Shown here: piece by piece, positions 4,862-34,569 of the stretch
Layout: each line of letters begins with the position of its first letter
How positions within the stretch are numbered: the first letter of the stretch is position 1
Virus record (IMG/VR): IMGVR_UViG_3300017963_000531
Location: 1 to 34,569 of that record
From: a virus
Direction: 5' to 3' (one strand)
Length of the DNA stretch: 34,569 nucleotides
Translations under genes and position numbers: made by a program
Notes under the pieces: model-generated
Told to the model about the DNA's origin: nothing
What the model saw: the letters and a program-made list of their open reading frames with translations, nothing else
Database searches by the model: none

Positions 4862-5285
4862 AAATAAATTCCAAGTATTATTTATCCATGACAAGAATGA
4901 AATAATCGGGCATGTTATAAAAGAAGACAGATCTCTAATTGGATGTATCCCCCATGGTTTGGATGCGTCGAATTGTCTATCTATAAGCATTATTGGAAAA
5001 ATATTAGAATTTAAAAAAGTGAAAGATAAAACATTAATTACTAGATTTGAAATAGCAGGTTTTCAAGGAGGTAATATGGATCATTTTGAAATAGATAATT
5101 ATTTTACTTATCACCAACCGAAAGATGATCAGGCAGCTAGATATCAAGCGATAAGAGAAGCTGCAAAACAGCTTGGTTATGCTATAATTGATCATACTCC
5201 ACAGTGCGCTGATCAGACTGCAGCGATCAGAAAGATACGCGAAGCAGTAATGACAGCAAATGCTGCCATAGCATGCAATGAATAA
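4851..5285 (+). CDS. Beta domain fused in frame to Acb2/Tad1-type hairpin domain, 144 aa
   Basis: The full ORF begins inside the small terminase 3' end. Residues 1-75 are beta-rich (FQVLFIHDKNEIIGHVIKED; LSISIIGKILEFKKVKD) with no recognised family. Residues 82-144 match the Acb2/Tad1 hairpin domain: F-T-Y-H-x-P-K-x-D-Q, then RYQAIREAAKQLG, and the ending REAVMTANAAIACNE. Known relatives are phage sponges that sequester cyclic oligonucleotide or gcADPR signals, blocking CBASS and Thoeris defence. A strong internal start at 5076 could yield the hairpin domain alone, so two products are possible. The total length is near that of two-domain Tad1 proteins, but I cannot confirm that the first domain is homologous. 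Confidence 0.7.
   Translation: MLLKNKFQVLFIHDKNEIIGHVIKEDRSLIGCIPHGLDASNCLSISIIGKILEFKKVKDKTLITRFEIAGFQGGNMDHFEIDNYFTYHQPKDDQAARYQAIREAAKQLGYAIIDHTPQCADQTAAIRKIREAVMTANAAIACNE
5076..5285 (+). CDS. Stand-alone Acb2/Tad1-hairpin protein from internal start (anti-CBASS/Thoeris candidate), 69 aa
   Basis: ATG 5076 (MDHFEIDNYFTYHQPKDDQ) is preceded by AAGGAGG at 5065-5071, the strongest ribosome binding site in this area, 4 bases before the start. The resulting 69-residue protein has the length and complete motif set of stand-alone phage proteins with this domain: YHxPK near the N-terminus, then two long helices ending V-M-T-A-N-A-A-I-A-C-N-E. Related Acb2 proteins form hexamers that bind cyclic di- and trinucleotides in the cytoplasm. 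Ligand specificity here cannot be read from the sequence. Whether this or the 144-residue form dominates is undecided. Confidence 0.75.
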   Translation: MDHFEIDNYFTYHQPKDDQAARYQAIREAAKQLGYAIIDHTPQCADQTAAIRKIREAVMTANAAIACNE

Positions 5286-5430
5286 AATAAAATGTCCAAA
5301 CTGTAAATCACATAAAATTACAATTATGAAAGATCCAAATTTTATAATTATTCAATGCAAAAAATGTGGATTTATGATCAATAAAAAAGTAAAAATATAC
5401 GGCAATAACTTTATTATAATTAGGGAATAA
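5278..5430 (+). CDS. Zinc-ribbon mini-protein, 50 aa
   Basis: Starts at an ATG overlapping the end of the hairpin gene and ends TAATG, sharing its last base with the large terminase start. It contains C6-x2-C9 (KCPNCKSH) and C27-x2-C30 (QCKKCGFM), a textbook small zinc ribbon. Likely a nucleic-acid or protein-binding adaptor. Its coupling to terminase suggests packaging or late regulation, by position only. Confidence 0.65.
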   Translation: MNKIKCPNCKSHKITIMKDPNFIIIQCKKCGFMINKKVKIYGNNFIIIRE

Positions 5431-25255: not shown

Positions 25256-25843
25256 TTAGAATTTAAAACTAAGATTTAATTTATTCTCCTCAGAATTAAT
25301 TTCAAATTTTCTTAAAGCAATAACAGTGTTTAAAGTACCACAGATTAAATAAACGGTTCCTAATATATAATATTTTGTTCTTTCTCTCTTTAGTCTATTA
25401 ATCTCTTTTTCTGGAAAATCATCATAAACATAATCTTCAATCGTTTCATTCAAATCTAATATATTATCAATCGAATCATATATTAATCCTGCAGCAATAA
25501 AGGAAATTGGCAATAAATATAAATTAGATTGTATTTGGGAGGATCTTTTTTCTAAAGATTCAAATTGTTTATTCCAGGCAATATTTATAGGATCCATACG
25601 AATACAATCGCCTTTTAATAGAGATTTTTGGTAGGCTATTATTTCTTTTTTTTCAATATTTTTAATACGTGGATTCTTGAAGGATATAATTTGGCCATCA
25701 GTGGTTTTCACTGTTAATAATTTTTCGGCATGTATTAAAACCTCAACATTTTTTATTACGCATCCTCCATAAAAAAAGATATCATCTGAATAACTTTGTT
25801 TAAAAAATAAGGACATGTAAATAAATAGATATATTAATTTCAT
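25256..25843 (-). CDS. Exported/membrane protein co-transcribed with the repressor, 195 aa
   Basis: N-terminal signal or anchor (MKLIYLFIYMSLFFKQSYSD). A beta-rich part follows (VEVLIHAEKLLTVKTTDGQI, GDCIRMDPINIAWNKQFE), then two hydrophobic helices (about 106-122 and 155-172) flanking an acidic loop. ATGA overlap with the repressor gene shows it is translated from the same leftward message, so it should be made in the lysogen. Genes in this place are often superinfection-exclusion or lysogenic-conversion factors; the role here is inference. No named family. Confidence 0.65.
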   Translation of the reverse strand: MKLIYLFIYMSLFFKQSYSDDIFFYGGCVIKNVEVLIHAEKLLTVKTTDGQIISFKNPRIKNIEKKEIIAYQKSLLKGDCIRMDPINIAWNKQFESLEKRSSQIQSNLYLLPISFIAAGLIYDSIDNILDLNETIEDYVYDDFPEKEINRLKRERTKYYILGTVYLICGTLNTVIALRKFEINSEENKLNLSFKF

Positions 25844-26217
25844 TTTTCTTCAACATGTTTCTCAATTAATTTATTAAGCAACTCAGGATTGCCATTAATC
25901 ATCCTGGTAAAGTGTGTCATAAAATTATCGAATATTATTTTATCAGTTTCTCTTCTAAAGCCATTGCCGTTTTTGTCTTGACCATTGCCAGTTAAAAGCC
26001 ATTCAATTGATACATCAAAATATTTCGCTATTGCAAATATTTTATAAACACTTGGTTCTTTATTGGAATTTATTATTTCATTTAATGTAGATTTAGGAAT
26101 GCCTGTCTTTTCAGCCAAATCCGTTTGTTTAACAGATTTCTTCTCCATAATAGATCTTATTCTAGAACCTAATTCTTTTTTAATAATTTCGCTATTTAGT
26201 ATTTTTTTACTTGACAT
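25840..26217 (-). CDS. XRE-family phage repressor, 125 aa
   Basis: HTH_XRE domain at residues about 15-70: RIRSIMEKKSVKQTDLAEKT, then GIPKSTLNEIINSNKEPSVY and KIFAIAKYFDVSIEWLLTG. The C-terminal part (about 82-125) is short and helical; there is no LexA/S24 peptidase, so induction by RecA-mediated self-cleavage is not expected. It faces divergently away from the Cro-like gene and is probably the CI-type repressor. The start codon directly follows the overlapping divergent promoters, leaving a leader of only a few bases, as in lambda cI. Confidence 0.85.
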   Translation of the reverse strand: MSSKKILNSEIIKKELGSRIRSIMEKKSVKQTDLAEKTGIPKSTLNEIINSNKEPSVYKIFAIAKYFDVSIEWLLTGNGQDKNGNGFRRETDKIIFDNFMTHFTRMINGNPELLNKLIEKHVEEK

Positions 26218-26239
26218 ATTCTATATTACGAATTATATT
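26211..26239 (+). promoter_or_regulatory. Predicted rightward early promoter (PR-like)
   Basis: TTGACA at 26211-26216, a 17-base spacer and TATATT at 26234-26239: an almost perfect sigma70-type promoter. It reads rightward, with transcription expected from about 26246. Its -35 box overlaps the repressor start codon on the opposite strand, so repressor bound here could block it. The transcript would carry a leader of about 500 bases before the Cro-like gene. Confidence 0.7.
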
Positions 26240-26261
26240 TACTCCATCAATTAACAAAGAT
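26232..26261 (-). promoter_or_regulatory. Predicted repressor promoter (PRM-like) overlapping PR
   Basis: On the minus strand a perfect TATAAT lies at 26237-26232, placing the start about 8 bases before the repressor ATG, close to leaderless. No good -35 box is visible at the right distance, as in activator-dependent PRM promoters. It shares bases with the PR -10, so the two promoters should be mutually exclusive. Confidence 0.5.
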
Positions 26262-26372
26262 CACAATTTTAAATTATCATTTATTGAAGGATAGTATGTG
26301 ATACAAATCAGAAAAATGTGTTCAATTATTTTTTCCATGATTAATAGAATATTAATAATCTTTAAAAATAAC

Positions 26373-26722
26373 GCCGACAGGGAAGTCTTTACTACTCTTA
26401 ATCTAGAAGTTTCCCGAACCTTCGGGATTTCAGGCATCACGCACTTGGATGCTTTTCAATTAAGTAATTCTGATAAACATTCCCAATCTCTATCTCTGTG
26501 GAAGAGCCCATGGTGTACCATTAATGCACCATGGGAGGCTTCCAATGGCTCGTCCTTCCTAGAACGTTGGCCGTTAAAAGGCTCACTTAAGATACTGTCG
26601 GCTTTCGGAGCTCGTCTTGTCAGATTATCTACGGTTAATGGCCATAGAGTAAAGGACGAACGCTCAACATTTTTACTAACATGTCGAACTCCTCCTTTTA
26701 TGATGGGCTTAATTACCCATCT
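26373..26722 (+). ncRNA. Large structured RNA in the early leader between repressor and Cro-like gene
   Basis: This stretch is about 45-50% GC in the sampled lines against about 20% just upstream, and carries no credible gene. Pairings: GGGAA 26380-26384/TTCCC 26480-26484 enclosing CTTAAT 26397-26402/ATTAAG 26459-26464, which encloses hairpins 26412-26427 and 26432-26454. Then comes a hairpin with CCCATGGTG 26507-26515/CACCATGGG 26527-26535, extended by GGAAG/CTTCC. TCGTCCTT 26550-26557/AAGGACGA 26652-26659 encloses TGGCCGTTAA 26568-26577/TTAATGGCCA 26635-26644 (one G-U). GATGGG/CCCATC 26702-26721 closes it. GCCGACAG 26373-26380 could pair with CTGTCGGC 26595-26602 as a pseudoknot. No known class matched by eye. 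Confidence 0.75.
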
Positions 26723-26748
26723 TTACATGAAATTTAAAGGACTTTTTT

Positions 26749-26979
26749 ATGGATATTAACATCATTCAACAATTTAAAATCGCTTTAATCCTTGCCAATA
26801 TGGATTACAAGAAATTTGCCGACCAGCATGGCGTGTGCAAGCAGCATGTATCGCAAACTGTTGCAGGTTTATCCGTTGGTCTCAGAAAATCCAGCCGTAT
26901 AGAAAATGCGATTAAAGAATTTACCAATTCCCAGATGATCGTTTTAAGAACAATCCTGAATAAAAAAGCAGCTGCTTAA
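26749..26979 (+). CDS. Cro-like helix-turn-helix regulator, 76 aa
   Basis: Small HTH protein: FKIALILANMDYKKFADQHG then VCKQHVSQTVAGLSVGLRKS fits an XRE-type helix-turn-helix (residues about 8-50), with a helical C-terminus. It is the first protein gene of the rightward early transcript, divergent from the XRE repressor, so Cro is the natural analogue. AAAGGA ribosome binding site 8 bases upstream. Its target is probably the 26211-26240 promoter region and/or the palindrome at 27001. Confidence 0.7.
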   Translation: MDINIIQQFKIALILANMDYKKFADQHGVCKQHVSQTVAGLSVGLRKSSRIENAIKEFTNSQMIVLRTILNKKAAA

Positions 26980-27000
26980 ACAATCAAATATATAAAAATA

Positions 27001-27017
27001 TGTTTACAATGTAAACA
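27001..27017. promoter_or_regulatory. Perfect 17-bp palindromic operator TGTTTACAATGTAAACA
   Basis: Two exact 8-base arms (TGTTTACA and TGTAAACA) around a central A, in the 58-base gap between the Cro-like gene and the 27038 gene. A TATAAA box lies just upstream (about 26990-26996). The form is that of an HTH-dimer operator. No second copy was found in the repressor promoter region; only the core ACAATGTA recurs, near 27875 in the loop before the 27905 gene. The protein that binds it is unknown. Confidence 0.65.
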
Positions 27018-27037
27018 ACATAGAATAGTTTTATTCA

Positions 27038-27688
27038 ATGATAGCAAAATATAATTTCATATCATTAAACAATGAACTGCATTTGGCACCTACCGAGATC
27101 GAGAAATTGATTGAAGTCGGTTTACTTCTTCCGGAAGGGTGGAAAGAGACCAATCATCTAAAAAAGATGGGAATTATAAAAAATGATTTCCAGGATTGCC
27201 GGTGGGACAGGGAAGAGGTCGAACGATATAAAATCATTAGAGATCTTATCAGAGATAAACATGTGCATTTTTACAAGGCTGTAAGCCATCAGATTAATGA
27301 GATCAGCATCGAGATAAACAATAAGCTGAATGGCCTTAATGAAAAAATTAACAGCCTCAGATTTGATTTTATTTCATTAAGGACTCGTCTGGATCGGCAG
27401 GAATTAATGCTGGATTCAAAAAAATTCTGTGAGATTACTGGCTATAAGATTCAGACTTTCCGCAATAATATGATTAAGATCGACAAAGAAAATAGAGTTG
27501 GCCGGTTGAACATTAAATTCTACGATCGATTAATCTGGCATAAGATTGGAAACAGATGGTTTACACCTTTAATGGATTTTGAAGAACTTCGTTCTGGATT
27601 TCATTATGAGCTTTGGCTTGAAGAAAAAAAGCGCAAAAAAGAATTTCAACCTAAACCAAAGATAGATTTAAATAAAAGAGAAGTATGA
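27038..27688 (+). CDS. Early protein with central coiled coil, 216 aa
   Basis: N-terminal helical domain (FISLNNELHLAPTEIEKLIE, with LKKMGIIKNDFQDCRWDREE). A central coiled coil spans about residues 85-120 (INEISIEINNKLNGLNEKIN). A C-terminal domain follows with possible HTH character (KKFCEITGYKIQTFRNNMIK) and a basic end. It lies right after the 17-bp palindrome, so it may be under operator control. The look is of a DNA-binding early regulator with MerR/HTH-17-like parts, but no family can be named. Strong helical content; no membrane segments. Confidence 0.55.
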   Translation: MIAKYNFISLNNELHLAPTEIEKLIEVGLLLPEGWKETNHLKKMGIIKNDFQDCRWDREEVERYKIIRDLIRDKHVHFYKAVSHQINEISIEINNKLNGLNEKINSLRFDFISLRTRLDRQELMLDSKKFCEITGYKIQTFRNNMIKIDKENRVGRLNIKFYDRLIWHKIGNRWFTPLMDFEELRSGFHYELWLEEKKRKKEFQPKPKIDLNKREV

Positions 27689-27690
27689 AC

Positions 27691-27837
27691 CGGTATGTTA
27701 AAGATACTTTTAAAATTTAAAAATTGAGAGGATTGTTAAAAATGGCTAGGATTCACCCATACAATTGTTACATAATATATAATACATATCTAGTCAATAA
27801 CTACTCCTCTAAGTTCTTCTATTTTAAGCACATACCG
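27691..27837. repeat. Large imperfect inverted repeat in the 216-base gap
   Basis: CGGTATGT 27691-27698 pairs with ACATACCG 27830-27837. Nested inside are TTAAAAT 27710-27716/ATTTTAA 27821-27827 and AGAGGA 27727-27732/TCCTCT 27805-27810, all in consistent order. The gap 27689-27904 has no gene. This could be a structured leader RNA, attenuator or regulatory DNA. AT richness makes the middle stem weak evidence; the outer and inner ones are better. Confidence 0.4.
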
Positions 27838-27852
27838 TAGTTAATTCCATAC

Positions 27853-27897
27853 TTCTCCATATTACAATATTAAACAATGTACTTTCAATATGGAGAA
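27853..27897 (+). promoter_or_regulatory. Hairpin burying the ribosome binding site of the 27905 gene
   Basis: TTCTCCATATT (27853-27863) and AATATGGAGAA (27887-27897) are perfect 11-base complements with a 23-base loop. The 3' arm contains GGAG (27892-27895), the ribosome binding site for ATG 27905. In RNA this would block initiation unless opened; in DNA it could be an operator half-site pair. Confidence 0.55.
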
Positions 27898-27904
27898 ATA
27901 TTAC

Positions 27905-28141
27905 ATGGAAACCATTTATTTACCTATCGACATGGATCAGAAAGATTCTGCCGAAGCAAAAAGACTTTTCATTCATACAATCGAACAAATCAACCAAAAC
28001 AACATTTCTCTCACCAAATTACACGAAGATAAGCTCGGGTTTTTAGTCAGATCATTCAATAGCGGAAATCTGAACGTCACCAATCTAAAAAAGGCGCTAA
28101 TATTTGTAATTAACGAATCCATAAACCACAAAATTAATTGA
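27905..28141 (+). CDS. Hypothetical early protein, 78 aa
   Basis: ATG 27905 (METIYLPIDMDQKDSAEAKR) has GGAG 9 bases upstream; an in-frame ATG at 27890 lies inside the hairpin arm and before that site. The protein is mostly helical (LFIHTIEQINQNNISLTKLH; LKKALIFVINESINHK). No family known. First gene after a gap with two structured segments, so it may be translationally regulated. Confidence 0.55.
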   Translation: METIYLPIDMDQKDSAEAKRLFIHTIEQINQNNISLTKLHEDKLGFLVRSFNSGNLNVTNLKKALIFVINESINHKIN

Positions 28142-28148
28142 GGATATT

Positions 28149-28361
28149 ATGGAAAAGTTACAAGCAAAATTTCTTGGCCTGCAGGAAATGCCAGGGAATA
28201 AATATGCTCCTCAGGTAAATATCCGGACTGGTAGTATTGTGCATACTAATACCTATAATCCAAAGAAACATGATTTAAACGCTGATGAAATGCAGAAAAT
28301 ATCAGATATGATGCGCAAATACGGTATATCAGCAAAACAAATTATCATCGATGAAAATTAA
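28149..28361 (+). CDS. Hypothetical early protein, 70 aa
   Basis: Starts MEKLQAKFLGLQEMPGNKYA 7 bases after the previous stop with GAGGA upstream. A beta part (VNIRTGSIVHTNTYNPK) precedes a helical end (DEMQKISDMMRKYGISAKQI). No Cys, signal or membrane segment. Not recognised. The 99-base gap that follows (28362-28460) holds a small GGCC-ATTC-GGCC hairpin and otherwise AT-rich sequence. Confidence 0.55.
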   Translation: MEKLQAKFLGLQEMPGNKYAPQVNIRTGSIVHTNTYNPKKHDLNADEMQKISDMMRKYGISAKQIIIDEN

Positions 28362-28460
28362 TTCATTATCGATCTATACCGGCCATTCGGCCTGTAAAGT
28401 TATTTGGCTTCATTTGAAAGCAAAGATAAAAATAAAACTTAAAATATTTTATAAGGCGAT

Positions 28461-28688
28461 ATGGAAGAAGCATTAAAACTAACAATCTGCCCTAAATGTA
28501 TCGGCTGCTCTAATCAAAGATGTCTACATCTTGGTGCAACCATGGTAACGTTCAGAGCAGAGCAATTAGTAGGGTACCCACTTAATAAATGCAATACAAA
28601 AGTTAAATATCCTTCTTTAAAACCTTTGCAAAATCATCTTAAAAAAATAAGAAATTTAAAATCTATAGGAGAATTAATAGATGGATAA
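28461..28688 (+). CDS. Small cysteine-rich protein, 75 aa
   Basis: C10-x2-C13-x2-C16-x4-C21 at the N-terminus (ICPKCIGCSNQRCLHLG) plus C44 could hold zinc or an iron-sulfur cluster. The remainder is basic and helical (LKPLQNHLKKIRNLKSIGEL). It overlaps the putative annealing-protein gene by 8 bases, so it may belong to the recombination unit. No named family. Confidence 0.55.
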   Translation: MEEALKLTICPKCIGCSNQRCLHLGATMVTFRAEQLVGYPLNKCNTKVKYPSLKPLQNHLKKIRNLKSIGELIDG

Positions 28689-29550
28689 AGAAGAAGTTAT
28701 CATTGATGAACCTCAGCAAGATTTAGTTGCTTATTCTGAATCCGAGGTAGATAATATTCTGGTTATTGCTGAGAAACGTCTACAATCAATAAAAAGAATT
28801 AAGGAATTCGCGCTTTCACTTACAAATGAATCAAATTGGCTCGAAATGGGTGGAAAGCCTTATCTGGATGCAGCCGGCTGTGAAAAAGTAGCCAGGCCTT
28901 TTGGAGTGAAAATTAAATTTGCAGATCCTAATAATCCTTACAGAAAAATTACCGGCAGTGATGAATTAGGTGAATATTACATTTATATATTTTTCGGGAA
29001 AGCCTTAATGGAAGGGGGTAGGGATGAAATCGATGTAATAGGGAAATGTTCATCCCGGGATAAATTCTTTGCCCAGGTTGATGGCCAATTAAAACCGATC
29101 AGCGAAGTAGATGAACCTAATATTATGATGAAGGCCTATAACAATATGTTTATGAACGGAGTGAAGAGGCTTTTAGGACTTAGGAATATGACCTGGGAAG
29201 AAGTCAAAAGGGGAACCACAAAGGAGAAATCGGCAAAAATAGATTATCACTCCAGGAAAGCTGAAACTGATCCGGACATAGAAAATAAAAAGAAAGAGAT
29301 TATTGCCAAGATTGAAAAATTATTAAATGAAAACGCTGACGTGGCCAGGCATCAGGAAATCTTAGAGAAACTTACAAAATATAAAGATCTGCCTAAAGCA
29401 AAATCTACAAATGATTTAAAAAAATTTACCCTTGCAAGATGCACTGTTTTATATGGCAAACTGAAGAGAGAATTTGATATTAAAAATGGTAATGGAAAAC
29501 CAAAAGAGGAAAAATCGAAAGAAAATGAAACAGGAGAATTACCATTATGA
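28681..29550 (+). CDS. Putative single-strand annealing/recombination protein, 289 aa
   Basis: Not a clear RecT/Erf/Bet match. It has a helical N-terminus with LALTNESNW-type sequence (KEFALSLTNESNWLEMGGKP then YLDAAGCEKVARPFGVKIKF), a mixed core (GEYYIYIFFGKALMEGG; FMNGVKRLLGLRNMTWEEVK) and a basic low-complexity tail. Phage proteins with this GGKPYL-x-A-G-x-E/C-K-x-A pattern commonly lie beside exonucleases. Here it is ATGA-coupled to a Cas4/RecB-like nuclease, the usual annealase-exonuclease pairing. Function is inferred mainly from this context. Confidence 0.5.
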   Translation: MDKEEVIIDEPQQDLVAYSESEVDNILVIAEKRLQSIKRIKEFALSLTNESNWLEMGGKPYLDAAGCEKVARPFGVKIKFADPNNPYRKITGSDELGEYYIYIFFGKALMEGGRDEIDVIGKCSSRDKFFAQVDGQLKPISEVDEPNIMMKAYNNMFMNGVKRLLGLRNMTWEEVKRGTTKEKSAKIDYHSRKAETDPDIENKKKEIIAKIEKLLNENADVARHQEILEKLTKYKDLPKAKSTNDLKKFTLARCTVLYGKLKREFDIKNGNGKPKEEKSKENETGELPL

Positions 29551-30461
29551 TCATCGAAAAAATCTATGAAGAAAAAGCTAAAAAAATAAAGGCTTATCCC
29601 TGTCATGTAAACAGAGCATCAAATCTTGGAGATCCTTGTATCAGGCGATTGGTTTATGAGCGTACTCACTGGCAGGAAAGATTATTGCATGATGTTCATT
29701 TACAACTTCTTTTCGATGAAGGAAATAACCAGGAAAAAATTGTTGTACGCGATTTGCAGGATGCTGGTTTTGAAATCTATGAACAACAGAGATCATTTGA
29801 GATTAAAGATCTTCAAATTACCGGACACATGGATCTGAAATTAAAAATTTCTGGAGATGAAACATTATATCCAACCGAAATAAAGTCCATGGCTCCTCAT
29901 ATCTTCCAAAAAGTAAATCAGGTATTAGATTTTTACAACAAGTCATATCCATGGCTGCAAAAATACCCTCCTCAATTACTTCTTTATATGTATGCCTCAG
30001 ATGAAGAAAGAGGAGTCTGGATTTTAAAAAATAAATCCACCGGTGCCTTGAAAGAAATATGGGTTGATTTTGATTATGACCTGGTGGATGAAATTTTCTG
30101 TAAAGCCCAAGTAATTAATGAGCACATAGAAAATAAAACTATGCCGGACCGGATAGAAGATCTTGAATTATGTGCCAGGTGTCCTTTCAGGCATATCTGT
30201 TTGCCGGAAAGAGATTTTGGTAAGGGAATTATAATCGAAGATGATGAAACATTGACTGAGATGATCGATCGCCTCGAGGATCTAAAAGAATCTTATTCTG
30301 AATACATTTCATTAAATAAGAAGATTACAGAATCGGTAAAAGAGAAAGACAATTTTATTGTAGGCAATAGATATCATATAACCGGCAAGTGGATTGACGT
30401 AAAAGAACGGATCCAGTATGCCTATAAATATTGGAAGAAAAATATCATTAAAATAGCCTGA
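29547..30461 (+). CDS. Cas4/RecB-like PD-(D/E)XK exonuclease with 4-Cys cluster, 304 aa
   Basis: Nuclease core: D96 in TGHMDLKL, E111-x-K113 in YPTEIKSM, and motif PPQLLLYMYA (Q143, Y147). C31 (GDPCIRRLVYER) together with C209-x2-C212-x5-C218 (LCARCPFRHIC) matches the iron-staple [4Fe-4S] arrangement of Cas4 and AddB. It likely resects DNA ends to single strands for the adjacent annealing protein, in recombination-dependent replication. There are no cas genes nearby, so this is not part of a CRISPR adaptation set. Confidence 0.82.
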   Translation: MIIEKIYEEKAKKIKAYPCHVNRASNLGDPCIRRLVYERTHWQERLLHDVHLQLLFDEGNNQEKIVVRDLQDAGFEIYEQQRSFEIKDLQITGHMDLKLKISGDETLYPTEIKSMAPHIFQKVNQVLDFYNKSYPWLQKYPPQLLLYMYASDEERGVWILKNKSTGALKEIWVDFDYDLVDEIFCKAQVINEHIENKTMPDRIEDLELCARCPFRHICLPERDFGKGIIIEDDETLTEMIDRLEDLKESYSEYISLNKKITESVKEKDNFIVGNRYHITGKWIDVKERIQYAYKYWKKNIIKIA

Positions 30462-30468
30462 GGGAATC

Positions 30469-30552
30469 ATGAGTAAAAATCTATTTTGGTTAGGGGCATG
30501 GTTCTTTGCTTTAGCAATAATTGCCTTTATAATTCTAATATCTCAATGTTAA
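30469..30552 (+). CDS. 27-residue single-pass membrane peptide
   Basis: Starts MSKNLFWLGAWFFALAIIAF and ends ILISQC. TGAGGG upstream serves as ribosome binding site, 7 bases after the nuclease stop. One hydrophobic helix from residue 5 to 24. Its size and nature mirror the 34-114 peptide. The following gene starts within its end. Confidence 0.55.
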   Translation: MSKNLFWLGAWFFALAIIAFIILISQC

Positions 30553-30761
30553 CATTATCTGAGCATCTCAAAAATAGCACAATAGATTGGTTTAATGCAC
30601 CATATAATAAATCCAGGATTATATCTATCTATGAAATAAAAAAGAATGTAGAAGAATATAACCAAAATATAAATGACTTAACTGAGACAATGGAAACAAA
30701 GCAAAATTATAAAATAATGGAATTCCTATTTTGGAACGTCAGAATAATATCAATGAGATAA
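30546..30761 (+). CDS. Hypothetical helical protein, 71 aa
   Basis: ATG 30546 (MLTLSEHLKNSTIDWFNAPY) overlaps the stop of the membrane peptide and is preferred to an upstream non-ATG start inside that gene. Middle section is a charged heptad-like helix (EIKKNVEEYNQNINDLTETM). Family unknown. It overlaps the next ORF by 31 bases. Confidence 0.5.
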   Translation: MLTLSEHLKNSTIDWFNAPYNKSRIISIYEIKKNVEEYNQNINDLTETMETKQNYKIMEFLFWNVRIISMR

Positions 30762-30925
30762 TTGAAAAATATGAATCTGATCTGGTTCATTATAAGATAA
30801 TTGACCATGGAAAAGCATTATTGGTAAGAGAATTTTTAAAAGATTTATATAAAATAAAAAGGAAAATTGAAGCATTGGAAGCCATAATTAACAATAAACA
30901 AATAGATCTTTTTGGAGGTTTTTAA
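30731..30925 (+). CDS. Hypothetical helical protein with TTG start, 64 aa
   Basis: No ATG is available in this frame, so the TTG at 30731 (giving MERQNNINEIIEKYESDLVH) is the probable start, with only a weak purine-rich site upstream. Mostly a charged helix or coiled coil (LKDLYKIKRKIEALEAIINN), ending QIDLFGGF. It sits exactly against the next start at 30926, whose GGAGG lies in its final codons, as expected of a real operon gene. Confidence 0.45.
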   Translation: MERQNNINEIIEKYESDLVHYKIIDHGKALLVREFLKDLYKIKRKIEALEAIINNKQIDLFGGF

Positions 30926-31417
30926 ATGCAAATAGAAAAAATCAAGATCAACAAAGATAGCTCTATCGCTGTCGAATTCAGCGAAATTATTGCTGAGAAA
31001 GAAGAAGGCGATATCTACAGGAAAATCCGGATCAGGTCCAATAGTCCTGCTCACAAAGGTTTTTATGACGTGCTCACAAAATTAAAACCTTATGCCTGTT
31101 CAATGATCGAATTACCGGAGAAAGAAGAAAAAAGAATTTCCGTAAAAGGGATTACTTTTAACCGGACCAAGGAAGGAATTTTGGGAGTAGTATTACATCT
31201 AGAAAGGAAATTAGATTATACTGATATTCCAATTGTTATAAAAACACCTTGTAATATTGAAGAACCATATAGTAACAATGGCGGTTATGCTGGTAATGTT
31301 TTGGATCCTGGATGTGCATCTTTTTTATATACCCTTATGGAAGAGGCAGAAAAATATGTTTCCGGATTCAGAGAACAGGCAGAATTGAATCTCAAGCAGG
31401 AATCTGTTTTATTATGA
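30926..31417 (+). CDS. Conserved-type phage protein, 163 aa
   Basis: Beta-rich N-terminus (MQIEKIKINKDSSIAVEFSE), then RIRSNSPAHKGFYDVLTKLK, ISVKGITFNRTKEGILGVVL, HLERKLDYTDIPIVIKTPC and a C-terminal helix (LYTLMEEAEKYVSGFREQAE). The layout resembles a family of phage early proteins of about 130-165 aa found in replication/recombination modules, without known function. GGAGG site 4 bases upstream. Coupled to the next gene by ATGA. Confidence 0.6.
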   Translation: MQIEKIKINKDSSIAVEFSEIIAEKEEGDIYRKIRIRSNSPAHKGFYDVLTKLKPYACSMIELPEKEEKRISVKGITFNRTKEGILGVVLHLERKLDYTDIPIVIKTPCNIEEPYSNNGGYAGNVLDPGCASFLYTLMEEAEKYVSGFREQAELNLKQESVLL

Positions 31418-31674
31418 CAAATTTCTTTTATCATTTAACGAAAAATAATTGGGGATTTCCTTGGCATATTATTTTAGCCTGGGCAGGTTTTATGTTTGGG
31501 ATAGGGATAACCGGAAACAGTCATCAAGGCATTGTTTTGGTTTCGTTTGTGATTATAACAATTGGAATATTGTACGAAAAAAAACAGGATTTTAAACCAG
31601 ATTGGTGGCAGGATATGATAGCAAATTTTTCAGGGATAATTTTGGGAATTTTATCAATTTTATGGGTTTTGTGA
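31414..31674 (+). CDS. Small three-helix membrane protein, 86 aa
   Basis: ATG 31414 overlaps the previous stop and is chosen over an upstream in-frame start. Hydrophobic helices at about 17-33 (WHIILAWAGFMFGIGI), 37-53 (HQGIVLVSFVIITIGILYE) and 68-86 (MIANFSGIILGILSILWVL). Short charged loop KKQDFKPDWWQD between helices 2 and 3. Phage genomes often hold such proteins; their role is usually unknown. TGATG overlap with the next gene. Confidence 0.6.
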   Translation: MTNFFYHLTKNNWGFPWHIILAWAGFMFGIGITGNSHQGIVLVSFVIITIGILYEKKQDFKPDWWQDMIANFSGIILGILSILWVL

Positions 31675-31919
31675 TGTATACATTTGCATCTGCCTCTCAG
31701 AGATTAAGATATGAAATACGCTCAAGAGTCAATATATGCCAGATCCAGATGAATATATGTACTTGGGAAAAGTTTTTTAAAACCGTAATGAGTGAAAAAG
31801 ATTATATCAAAAATATCCGCGACCAATATCATAAACCAATTAAAAAACGAAAAAAAATAATCTTATTTACTGCTGATGATTATAAAATAGAATCTAGAAA
31901 TGGCAAATCCACAAATTGA
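31674..31919 (+). CDS. Basic hypothetical protein before the replication initiator, 81 aa
   Basis: ATG 31674 (MYTFASASQRLRYEIRSRVN) overlaps the preceding stop; earlier starts would lie inside the membrane-protein gene. Basic and helical (FFKTVMSEKDYIKNIRDQYH, KKRKKIILFTADDYKIE). It overlaps the O-like gene by 20 bases. Possibly nucleic-acid binding. Not recognised. Confidence 0.5.
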   Translation: MYTFASASQRLRYEIRSRVNICQIQMNICTWEKFFKTVMSEKDYIKNIRDQYHKPIKKRKKIILFTADDYKIESRNGKSTN

Positions 31920-32643
31920 AAATGGTTACACTAGGATAGCTAATTCGATATTAGGCGCTTTAGCGAATATTAGAATACCAGGAGAATCAAGACAATGTTT
32001 AGACTTTATAATAAGGAAAACTTATGGATATGGTAAAAAAAAAGATTCGATTTCGCTTTCCCAGTTCGTCGACGCAACTAGTATCCCTAAGAATAGAATA
32101 TGCAGGGCTTTAGGCAAATTAAAAGATATGAACTTAATCGTTACCCAAAAAGAGAACGCCATCCATACAACTTATTGTTTTAACAAGGATTATGATGCCT
32201 GGAAGCCATTACCCAAAAAGAGAACGTTACCCAAAAAGAGAATGACCATTACCCAAAAAGAGAATAATCGTTACCCAAAAAGAGACACACAAAAGAAAGA
32301 AAGAAAATATACAAAAGAAAGATGGTCAAAATTTCCAAAGGAAATATTTGACCTTTACAATTTTTTTATTTCAATCTTAAACGAAAAAGAAAAAAAAATA
32401 TATGAACCTAAAACTGATAATCAAAAATGGGAGTGGTTAGATACTCTCGATAAATGTCATAGGATAGATAGATATGAATATTGGCAGATTAAAGATGTCA
32501 TCGAGCATTATCGCGAAGATGAATTTTGGAGCAAGAATTTCTACTCCGTTAAAAAATTAAGAGAAAAAAATAAAGATGGCGTAAAACGTATAGATGAATG
32601 GTATATGAAAATAGAAGATTTATTGGAGGCTCCGCATGCCTAA
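31900..32643 (+). CDS. Replication initiator, lambda O-like N-terminal domain, 247 aa
   Basis: Residues 4-78 match the phage replication protein O N-terminal (winged-helix) domain: ENGYTRIANSILGALANIRI, QCLDFIIRKTYGYGKKKDSI, SLSQFVDATSIPKNRICRAL, GKLKDMNLIVTQKE. Residues about 105-140 are a basic segment encoded by the iterons. The C-terminal domain (about 150-247) is helical with W-rich blocks (QKWEWLDTLDKCHRIDRYEY) and probably recruits host helicase or loader. As in lambda, the protein should bind iterons inside its own gene. No DnaB or DnaC homologue is encoded, so host helicase is needed. Confidence 0.85.
   Translation: MANPQIENGYTRIANSILGALANIRIPGESRQCLDFIIRKTYGYGKKKDSISLSQFVDATSIPKNRICRALGKLKDMNLIVTQKENAIHTTYCFNKDYDAWKPLPKKRTLPKKRMTITQKENNRYPKRDTQKKERKYTKERWSKFPKEIFDLYNFFISILNEKEKKIYEPKTDNQKWEWLDTLDKCHRIDRYEYWQIKDVIEHYREDEFWSKNFYSVKKLREKNKDGVKRIDEWYMKIEDLLEAPHA
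32141..32286 (+). repeat. Five iterons inside the O-like gene: likely replication origin
   Basis: TTACCCAAAAAGAGAA occurs at 32141, 32209, 32227 and 32249, and as TTACCCAAAAAGAGAC at 32271; spacings are 68, 18, 22 and 22 bases. The copies fall in three different reading frames (giving TQKEN, PKKR and YPKRD peptides), so the repeat is kept as DNA, not as protein. A purine-rich A tract (about 32286-32322) follows and could be the unwinding element. Layout mirrors ori-lambda inside gene O. Confidence 0.88.
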
Positions 32644-32947
32644 GAAATCAGAAACTGAAAAATTAACTCCAAGAGAATTTTATTTAAAAAAACTCCATGA
32701 GATAAAAGAACGATTGAGCAGAGATGAAATTGTGCAAAGAAAAGAATTCGATATTACTGTATACTATGCTGAGAATCATAGGTGTTTGTCTTGTGGAAAT
32801 CCAAAGGATTTAATTTCACCAAATGAGTGCAAAAGATGTATGACCGAAAGAAAAAGTGAAGAGTATGTTAATTGGTATGTTAAATCAAAAGATAAAGTTA
32901 AAACAAAAATAAAATTTAGTGATTCTGATTACGAATTACCATTTTAA
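32636..32947 (+). CDS. Zinc-finger-type protein after the initiator, 103 aa
   Basis: Overlaps the initiator gene by 8 bases. Charged N-terminal helix (LTPREFYLKKLHEIKERLSR), then C56-x2-C59 (HRCLSCGNP) and C69-x2-C72 (NECKRCMTE) forming a probable zinc site, and a basic tail. Its place behind the O-like gene is where lambda has P, but there is no helicase-loader similarity. May assist replication or act as a DNA-binding factor. Confidence 0.55.
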   Translation: MPKKSETEKLTPREFYLKKLHEIKERLSRDEIVQRKEFDITVYYAENHRCLSCGNPKDLISPNECKRCMTERKSEEYVNWYVKSKDKVKTKIKFSDSDYELPF

Positions 32948-32965
32948 AAATCAGGGTTTGGGGCA

Positions 32966-33118
32966 ATGGAGGAAATGTTAAGAATCGTGCTCTTTGAAAT
33001 ATTTCGGCAAGAATATTTTAAGCACCTTAAATCTATTCTTAACACATATGAATCAAAAGTCAGACTGAATAGTTTGATTTTCTGGTTAGCTAATAAAAAC
33101 GTGGTGTACGTTCCCTGA
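32966..33118 (+). CDS. Possible 50-residue protein
   Basis: ORF in the 193-base gap between the zinc-finger gene and RusA: MEEMLRIVLFEIFRQEYFKH then LKSILNTYESKVRLNSLIFW and ending NVVYVP. Helical and amphipathic. A weak GGGGC site precedes the ATG; another ATG at 32975 is in frame. Reading is uncertain. Confidence 0.4.
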   Translation: MEEMLRIVLFEIFRQEYFKHLKSILNTYESKVRLNSLIFWLANKNVVYVP

Positions 33119-33140
33119 TTTTATTTAAAGGCAAAATATT

Positions 33141-33647
33141 ATGACATTAAAATTATTTTTCCCAGGCATACCATTCAGCAAGCAATCGGTAAGGGCTAAT
33201 CCTGTCTACAATCGAAAAACAGGAGAACCGGTGATTTATAAAGACAAATTAACTGGCAAGAAAAGAGTTTTAATAAGCTTCCATCAGCCAAAGAAAGTTG
33301 TAGAGCAGGAAAAATCTATAAAGGCAATGACAGCAAAACAAATTCCTAAGAATTTTACTCCCTTCAGGGGACCGGTTATTGTAAAAGAATTGTTATTTGT
33401 ATTTCCTCCTCTTTCAACCTGGCCGAAATATAAACTTTATGATTTAGCCCAGGGGAAAGTATTCTACAAAGACACAAAACCAGATATCACCGATAATCTG
33501 TGTAAAGGCTTATTCGATGCCATGGAAGGAATTATTTACATGAATGATTCGCAGATTTGCGAACAAGGCTTAACCAGAAAGATCTATGGTCTTAAGCCTG
33601 GGATATATTTAACGATTGAAGGGAATAAGGAGCAAAGCAATGAGTGA
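33141..33647 (+). CDS. RusA-family Holliday junction resolvase, 168 aa
   Basis: Begins LFFPGIPFSKQSVRANPVYN, as RusA proteins do. The signature KPDITDNLCKGLFDAMEGII followed by YMNDSQICEQ holds the metal-binding aspartates (D of KPD, D of TDN, D of NDSQ), with one extra residue compared with the common KPDxDN. Length is above E. coli RusA (120 aa) because of an insertion around residues 22-60. It cuts four-way junctions left by recombination-dependent replication so that genomes can be packaged. Acts with the annealase and exonuclease at 28.7-30.5 kb. Confidence 0.88.
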   Translation: MTLKLFFPGIPFSKQSVRANPVYNRKTGEPVIYKDKLTGKKRVLISFHQPKKVVEQEKSIKAMTAKQIPKNFTPFRGPVIVKELLFVFPPLSTWPKYKLYDLAQGKVFYKDTKPDITDNLCKGLFDAMEGIIYMNDSQICEQGLTRKIYGLKPGIYLTIEGNKEQSNE

Positions 33648-33987
33648 TGATTCAATAACAATCGATGAATTACGTTATGAAATTATTAACTGCAAAACTA
33701 AAGAATATCGTGAAAAATGTCTTGATGAATTACAAAACAGACTCCAAGTACGAATTAAGGAATTAAAAAAAAAGAAAGTTGATATAGAGTTAAGATATGT
33801 TAAAAAGTGTCATGATGCTATCTCTATGCTTGAAGGTTGGGAGGGACAAGAACAAGAAAACAAGCAATTAAAATCTGTACTTGAGGAGATAATAAAAAGA
33901 ATTAAGAAGGCTGGTTATTACGACCTTGATAAAGCATGTGCAGATTTGGAAGCAATAAAAGAAATAGCATTAAAGGAGATTAAATAA
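33640..33987 (+). CDS. Coiled-coil protein, 115 aa
   Basis: ATG 33640 follows AAGGAG; the segment from AAGGAG through ATGAGTG is the same as at the 127 gene. A long charged helix (CLDELQNRLQVRIKELKKKK; ENKQLKSVLEEIIKRIKKAG) dominates, so a coiled-coil dimer is likely. Overlaps the RusA stop by 8 bases and the next start by TAATG. Function unknown. Confidence 0.6.
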   Translation: MSDDSITIDELRYEIINCKTKEYREKCLDELQNRLQVRIKELKKKKVDIELRYVKKCHDAISMLEGWEGQEQENKQLKSVLEEIIKRIKKAGYYDLDKACADLEAIKEIALKEIK

Positions 33988-34142
33988 TGGAAATAAACGA
34001 GCAAGAAGTAATTGAAAAAATGGATGAATTAGAAAAAATTGCGAAAGTAATAGGTTATCATTTTTGGAAATGTGAAACAGATCAACAGGCAATAAGATTG
34101 GGAATGGATTGTGCCATAGAAATAGTGAGGGAGATAAAATAA
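33987..34142 (+). CDS. Small helical protein, 51 aa
   Basis: Starts MEINEQEVIEKMDELEKIAK at a TAATG overlap and ends EIVREIK, with its own stop shared with the next ATG (TAATG). One Cys in FWKCETD and one in MDCAIE. Coupling on both sides supports it. Not recognised. Confidence 0.55.
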   Translation: MEINEQEVIEKMDELEKIAKVIGYHFWKCETDQQAIRLGMDCAIEIVREIK

Positions 34143-34483
34143 TGTTATACTTTTTTAAACAACTGGCAAAGTATCCGAAGGTTGAGAAGGCTATATTTAT
34201 TTATATTACTAATGATTTTGAATATGAATTTCAAATAAAAAAGTATGGGAACATGGATATAAATAGATGTGGAGATTATTTTGATTACCGCACATTATCA
34301 GGCTGGATAGATGCATTTTTTCGGGAGCATTATATATTTTTTGAAATATTTGCAGCACCTAATCCAAGAGAATTTTGGTTTGAAATTAACAGGCGATATA
34401 GAATGGCACATTACAGGAACTACCAACAAGCCCATATCGCTGCATGGCTAAAAGCTGCTGAGATATTGGAGGGAGAGATATGA
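34142..34483 (+). CDS. Hypothetical aromatic-rich protein, 113 aa
   Basis: ATG 34142 is the natural start (MLYFFKQLAKYPKVEKAIFI), TAATG-coupled to the previous gene. Rich in Phe/Tyr/Trp (DYFDYRTLSGWIDAFFREHY, FFEIFAAPNPREFWFEINRR) and ends with a helix (QQAHIAAWLKAAEILEGEI). Not obviously a membrane protein because charges are spread evenly. Its last 37 bases are in the terminal repeat, so the gene continues the operon into position 1 on the circle. Confidence 0.6.
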   Translation: MLYFFKQLAKYPKVEKAIFIYITNDFEYEFQIKKYGNMDINRCGDYFDYRTLSGWIDAFFREHYIFFEIFAAPNPREFWFEINRRYRMAHYRNYQQAHIAAWLKAAEILEGEI

Positions 34484-34569
34484 GATTAAAAATAGCATGG
34501 ATGATACTTTATTTTTTTATTTTTGTATTTTTAATATTTATATGGCAGATGAAATCTTAAAGGAGCAAA
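34447..34569. repeat. Terminal direct repeat, copy 2
   Basis: Identical to 1-123. On the circular map this is the same segment, so the early operon runs without a break from RusA and its followers into the genes at 34-2007. Confidence 0.95.
34480..34560 (+). CDS. 26-residue membrane peptide (second copy, contig overlap)
   Basis: Same ORF as 34-114, repeated only because the contig ends overlap. ATG overlaps the stop of the 34142-34483 gene. Confidence 0.6.
   Translation: MRLKIAWMILYFFIFVFLIFIWQMKS

Follow-up and report, generated by a model that had tools for sequence, protein, structure and literature searches.

A folded, GC-rich segment in the longest intergenic gap

Between the repressor gene and the first early gene of a phage known only from metagenome sequence lies a real and unusual segment, and its position, composition and predicted folding make a fair but unproven case that it is a structured RNA with a regulatory role, belonging to no known family. 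It is best read as a putative locus for a non-coding regulatory RNA within the lysis-lysogeny switch. It is a single sequence for which no relative was found in the collections searched, which makes it a good candidate rather than an established element.

The window analysed here takes in a complete IMG/VR virus record (34,569 bases). Its head genes are similar to their counterparts in phages of the VP882 and ep3 types (37-38% identity for the capsid); it encodes a lambda-type portal and a GpA-type terminase, as well as an O-like replication initiator, a RusA resolvase and a Cas4-type exonuclease, and ARAGORN detects no tRNA or tmRNA genes in it. The CI-like repressor (25840-26217, minus strand, 125 aa) matches Pfam HTH_3 (1.6e-13) and Phage_CI_repr (7.6e-9) and falls among the PHROG transcriptional repressors. 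Its gene has no preceding Shine-Dalgarno sequence, as in leaderless lambda cI. After the repressor comes a 195-aa protein (25256-25843, minus strand) that matches no family and has a hydrophobic N-terminus, possibly a membrane or exported protein expressed in lysogeny. The first early gene (26749-26979, plus strand) encodes a small protein of 76 aa that we call Cro-like only by its position and a weak structure model: the model is all-helical and of low confidence, and no Pfam, PHROG or NCBIfam family was matched.

The gap between these two genes measures 531 nt (26218-26748) and is the longest intergenic gap in the window, the next being 226 nt. At its repressor end stands a putative PR-like plus-strand promoter, TTGACA-17-TATATT (26211-26239), with 11 of the 12 consensus bases; its -35 box overlaps the repressor start codon. 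The first-pass annotation of this DNA had placed such a promoter about 500 nt ahead of the first early gene, and with a near-consensus site here and an ATG at 26749 this holds. As predicted from the sequence, transcription would start near 26247 and give a leader of ~500 nt.

The first 155 bases of the gap (26218-26372) are AT-rich, with 19% GC, and contain a 17-bp AT palindrome (26340-26356). We rejected an operator role for the palindrome: it is not repeated elsewhere, and its near-matches are at chance level. From 26373 to 26722 the GC content is 44%, against 34% for the phage genome, and 3.5% of the 350-nt stretches of the window are equally GC-rich. The GC jump reported earlier for this interval is therefore present, as a step from 19% to 44%, although the measured level falls short of the 45-50% given there.

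No family of Rfam 15 matches the window anywhere along its length at gathering cut-offs, with the ROOL, GOLLD and OLE models included in the search, and the earlier impression that the segment matches no familiar class is supported. A relaxed threshold brought up only sau-5971, at chance level (E 3.6; it scores 16 bits where the cut-off is 90).

The segment folds beyond chance on both strands

The minimum free energy of 26365-26724 is -104.4 kcal/mol on the plus strand and -113.8 kcal/mol on the minus strand, and in both cases (z -4.1 and -5.0, respectively) the energy lies below that of every one of 600 dinucleotide shuffles. In a scan of the window by 360-nt segments (384 strand-segments), the gap segment ranks first on the minus strand (z -5.3) and fifth on the plus strand. 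In a 150-nt scan the gap region is among the better segments and is not outstanding, a weaker result than at 360 nt, so that the fold signal stems partly from long-range pairing. Ranks 2 and 3 of the 360-nt scan are taken by the two strands of 5041-5400 (z -4.7 and -4.4), which falls within coding sequence, between a pair of short genes that precede the terminase. Since this coding segment folds nearly as strongly, folding alone is no proof of a functional RNA.

More than seven helices are predicted over ~350 nt, in line with the count of at least seven made in the first pass, and they are arranged in two domains. Domain 1 (26373-26602; z -4.8 plus, -3.9 minus; unmatched by any of 300 shuffles, whichever the strand) is closed by an 8-bp pairing, 26373-26380/26595-26602, with a mean probability of 0.99 on the plus and 0.96 on the minus strand. 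This pairing had been thought to create a pseudoknot. It is firmly predicted, but on either strand the minimum-energy fold has it as a nested pairing that closes a multi-branched domain; the pseudoknot is not necessary and arises only if a competing pairing, 26550-26557/26652-26659, forms. By plus-strand pair probabilities, domain 1 further comprises the helices 26381-26388/26536-26543, 26412-26417/26422-26427, 26432-26438/26448-26454, 26507-26517/26525-26535 and 26544-26553/26564-26575, and two of its helix junctions on this strand have zero nucleotides (between 26380 and 26381, and between 26543 and 26544). Domain 2 (26603-26724; z -5.0 minus, -1.9 plus) is predicted to fold on the minus strand into three hairpins: 26721-26715/26708-26702, 26698-26681/26670-26651 (one interrupted stem) and 26648-26642/26634-26628.

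A possible leader of the early mRNA, or an RNA of the opposite strand

We tentatively take 26373-26722 to be the main part of a folded, non-coding, cis-acting leader of ~500 nt on the early (Cro-like) mRNA, a reading that we prefer to its rivals while holding it to be somewhat short of probable. We infer transcription of the plus strand, action in cis and a regulatory step: transcription would start at the PR-like promoter and cross 26373-26722, the leader would fold as two domains while being transcribed, and it would then tune either the completion of the early mRNA or the translation of the Cro-like gene. Several observations favour this reading. The segment sits in the longest gap of the window, between a near-consensus plus-strand promoter and the first early gene. 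Its plus-strand fold lies below all shuffles, and domain 1, with its zero-nucleotide junctions, folds still further beyond chance on that strand. The codon scores of its open frames (given below) do not rise above the lower edge of the coding range, and it forms a GC-rich island, as is common for structured RNAs in AT-rich genomes. Against the leader stand the much better folding of domain 2 on the minus strand and the failure to find a homologue.

At its downstream end, the last hairpin of the leader, together with a UCCUUU/AAAGGA pairing, would lie directly at the Cro-like ribosome-binding site. The Shine-Dalgarno-like TAAAGGAC of the Cro-like gene (26735-26742, plus strand) is an octamer repeated at 26650-26657, and the pairing of UCCUUU (26693-26698) with AAAGGA (26736-26741) has a predicted probability of about 0.4-0.47. 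The Shine-Dalgarno is about equally covered without the leader; its burial is therefore not leader-specific and is a hint only. A search for a terminator-type attenuator inside the leader found none.

The plus-strand preference that had been drawn from G-U pairs is not supported. Well-supported helices contain 8 G-U pairs on the plus and 7 on the minus strand, and the strand difference in folding energy over the whole segment, being reached by 17% of shuffles, does not discriminate. Taken separately, 26373-26602 folds slightly better on the plus strand (difference reached by 23% of shuffles) and 26603-26724 much better on the minus strand (0.2% of shuffles, a somewhat optimistic figure, as the split at the closing helix was chosen after the fold was seen). 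Genomic context, with a strong plus-strand promoter and a plus-strand gene downstream, and fold energies point different ways.

An RNA from the minus strand, folded from 26724 to 26373, is nearly as likely as the plus-strand leader, and we regard it as possible. It could be a free RNA, antisense to the early leader, or else the long leader of a PRE-like repressor transcript that starts near the Cro-like gene. In lambda, the PRE-type repressor leader and the OOP-type antisense RNA start near cro and run toward cI, antisense to the early leader, and a minus-strand RNA would resemble them in this; neither is known for a large folded domain, and no CII-like protein or clear minus-strand promoter was found here. 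What speaks for the minus strand is that the gap segment is, on this strand, the best-folding strand-segment of the whole window, that domain 2 shows the strand bias just described, and that the strand offers a long-range closing helix and then GTTATTTTT. There is also a weak promoter-like site at 26798-26771 on the minus strand, although such sites occur at the chance rate (39 against 37 expected in 26700-34569, both strands). No terminator-like site was found for this RNA, the strand difference over the whole segment is not significant, and the bias of domain 2 carries the caveat of a split made after the data were seen.

Both strands might also contribute. That the segment represents a new class of large (~350 nt) phage RNA, one that sits at the lysis-lysogeny switch, controls entry into the early programme and may fold from either strand, is distinctly unlikely; in the both-strand version, domain 1 would fold on the plus and domain 2 on the minus strand, in RNAs that overlap or adjoin. 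If a large folded RNA does lie in this decision region of a temperate phage, a switch that is usually described via two proteins would have RNA as one of its chief actors, and the segment would offer a defined target for deletion and test.

Open reading frames and a possible foreign origin

Across the folded region the plus strand is stop-free for 154 codons, an open length with a chance probability of about 0.001 by shuffling. The corresponding 153-codon frame (26298-26759) begins with a GTG at 26298, has AAGGA six nt upstream and stops 11 nt inside the Cro-like gene, overlapping its start. Its codon score of -0.07 is below the minimum of 67 segments of real genes (-0.006) and resembles the scores of wrong frames, which average -0.155 when stop-free (n=26). 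GC by codon position in the GC-rich part of the frame is 0.44, 0.49 and 0.38, with the second position the richest, and is atypical of window genes; the translation has few acidic residues, and it yielded a structure model of low confidence, no family match and no homologue. On the minus strand, 88 codons are stop-free (26459-26722) and lack a usual start codon; here the codon score is 0.015, the low edge of coding, and GC by position (0.51, 0.43, 0.35) is coding-like, with no protein family or homologue matched. We judge both open frames to be non-coding, and a protein-coding gene at the folded region is not supported, given codon usage unlike that of the phage genes and the lack of homologues.

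A decayed gene stays a live rival. The segment could be a foreign DNA remnant, from a decayed gene or a mobile element, that became inserted in the immunity region, does nothing as an RNA and owes its GC content and open frames to its origin. The sharp border of the GC step, the long open plus-strand frame and the coding-like composition of the minus-strand frame would all suit such an origin. We nevertheless consider it unlikely: neither frame has a protein family or a homologue, no flanking direct repeat is seen, and the folding exceeds that of dinucleotide shuffles. Very unlikely, in our view, is a translated 153-codon leader frame that would couple translation to the Cro-like gene; its open length, the AAGGA before the GTG and the 11-nt overlap with the Cro-like start are weighed against by the codon score, the GC-rich second codon position, the few acidic residues and the lack of a confident fold or homologues.

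Antitermination and comparison with known phage RNAs

An RNA antitermination or immunity role had been suggested for the segment. PHROG matching of the scanned proteins brought up no N- or Q-like antiterminator, which lends the antitermination role weak contextual support. However, a simple terminator scan of the 7.9 kb downstream gave one site on the plus strand (two on both strands, against 3.9 expected), and with only one plus-strand terminator-like site there is no clear need for antitermination, which lacks independent support. An immunity role as an antisense RNA like P4 CI finds no support in the window, where complementarity to the leader does not go beyond chance: the longest inverted match elsewhere is 12 nt, and shuffled leaders average 11.7 nt (direct matches).

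The put RNA of HK022 promotes terminator read-through by binding the beta' zinc-binding domain. It is about 70 nt long and consists of two stem-loops, with putR some 270 nt past the start site of PR (PMC9378689). The gap RNA, if transcribed from the plus strand, would be like putL and putR in being a structured early-leader RNA of a temperate phage, but it has many helices spread over ~350 nt, precedes the first early gene and has no evident put-like sequence. ROOL and GOLLD, which are often near tRNA islands, are likewise phage- or prophage-encoded, large and multi-helix, and their function is unknown (PMC12286853); the gap RNA is shorter, matches no Rfam model, has no tRNA genes nearby and has a structure that is predicted only. 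It is most improbable that the segment is an antiterminator like put or an autonomous ornate RNA like ROOL or GOLLD, despite a leader position as for put and a size and complexity between the two. The P4 CI RNA/SeqA and the Gifsy-1 IsrK RNA come from operon leaders of a satellite or prophage and act via complementarity to nearby targets (PMC4825925); the gap segment would also lie in a leader, but it is much longer and shows no complementarity beyond chance.

Relatives of the phage and of the segment

No DNA similarity in phages or plasmids covers the folded segment, and the weak phage DNA matches that were obtained fall on the AT-rich stretch or on the start of the Cro-like gene, outside the folded part. 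The Cro-like protein and the next protein, of 216 aa, have no relatives in IMG/VR or phage records. Six-pattern searches found neither open frame in IMG/VR, nor the minus-strand frame in GTDB representatives; these IMG/VR and GTDB searches used short patterns, which diverged relatives would escape. A 16-nt pattern of the closing helix gave three IMG/VR matches that we judged to be chance, there being no similarity beyond the pattern.

The collections searched contain no close relative of the whole record. Relatives that share the Cas4-type exonuclease (33-47% identity) or the terminase (50%) lack any counterpart to the leader or the Cro-like protein, and their repressors are not closely related to this one; these phages do not share the immunity region. 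Directly preceding the Cas4-type exonuclease (29547-30461) in the window is a 289-aa protein (28681-29550) with no Pfam or PHROG match, which has a homologue of 28-40% identity in all of the Cas4-bearing relatives and adjoins Cas4 wherever this was looked at. The two proteins are likely a recombination pair, an annealing protein plus an exonuclease.
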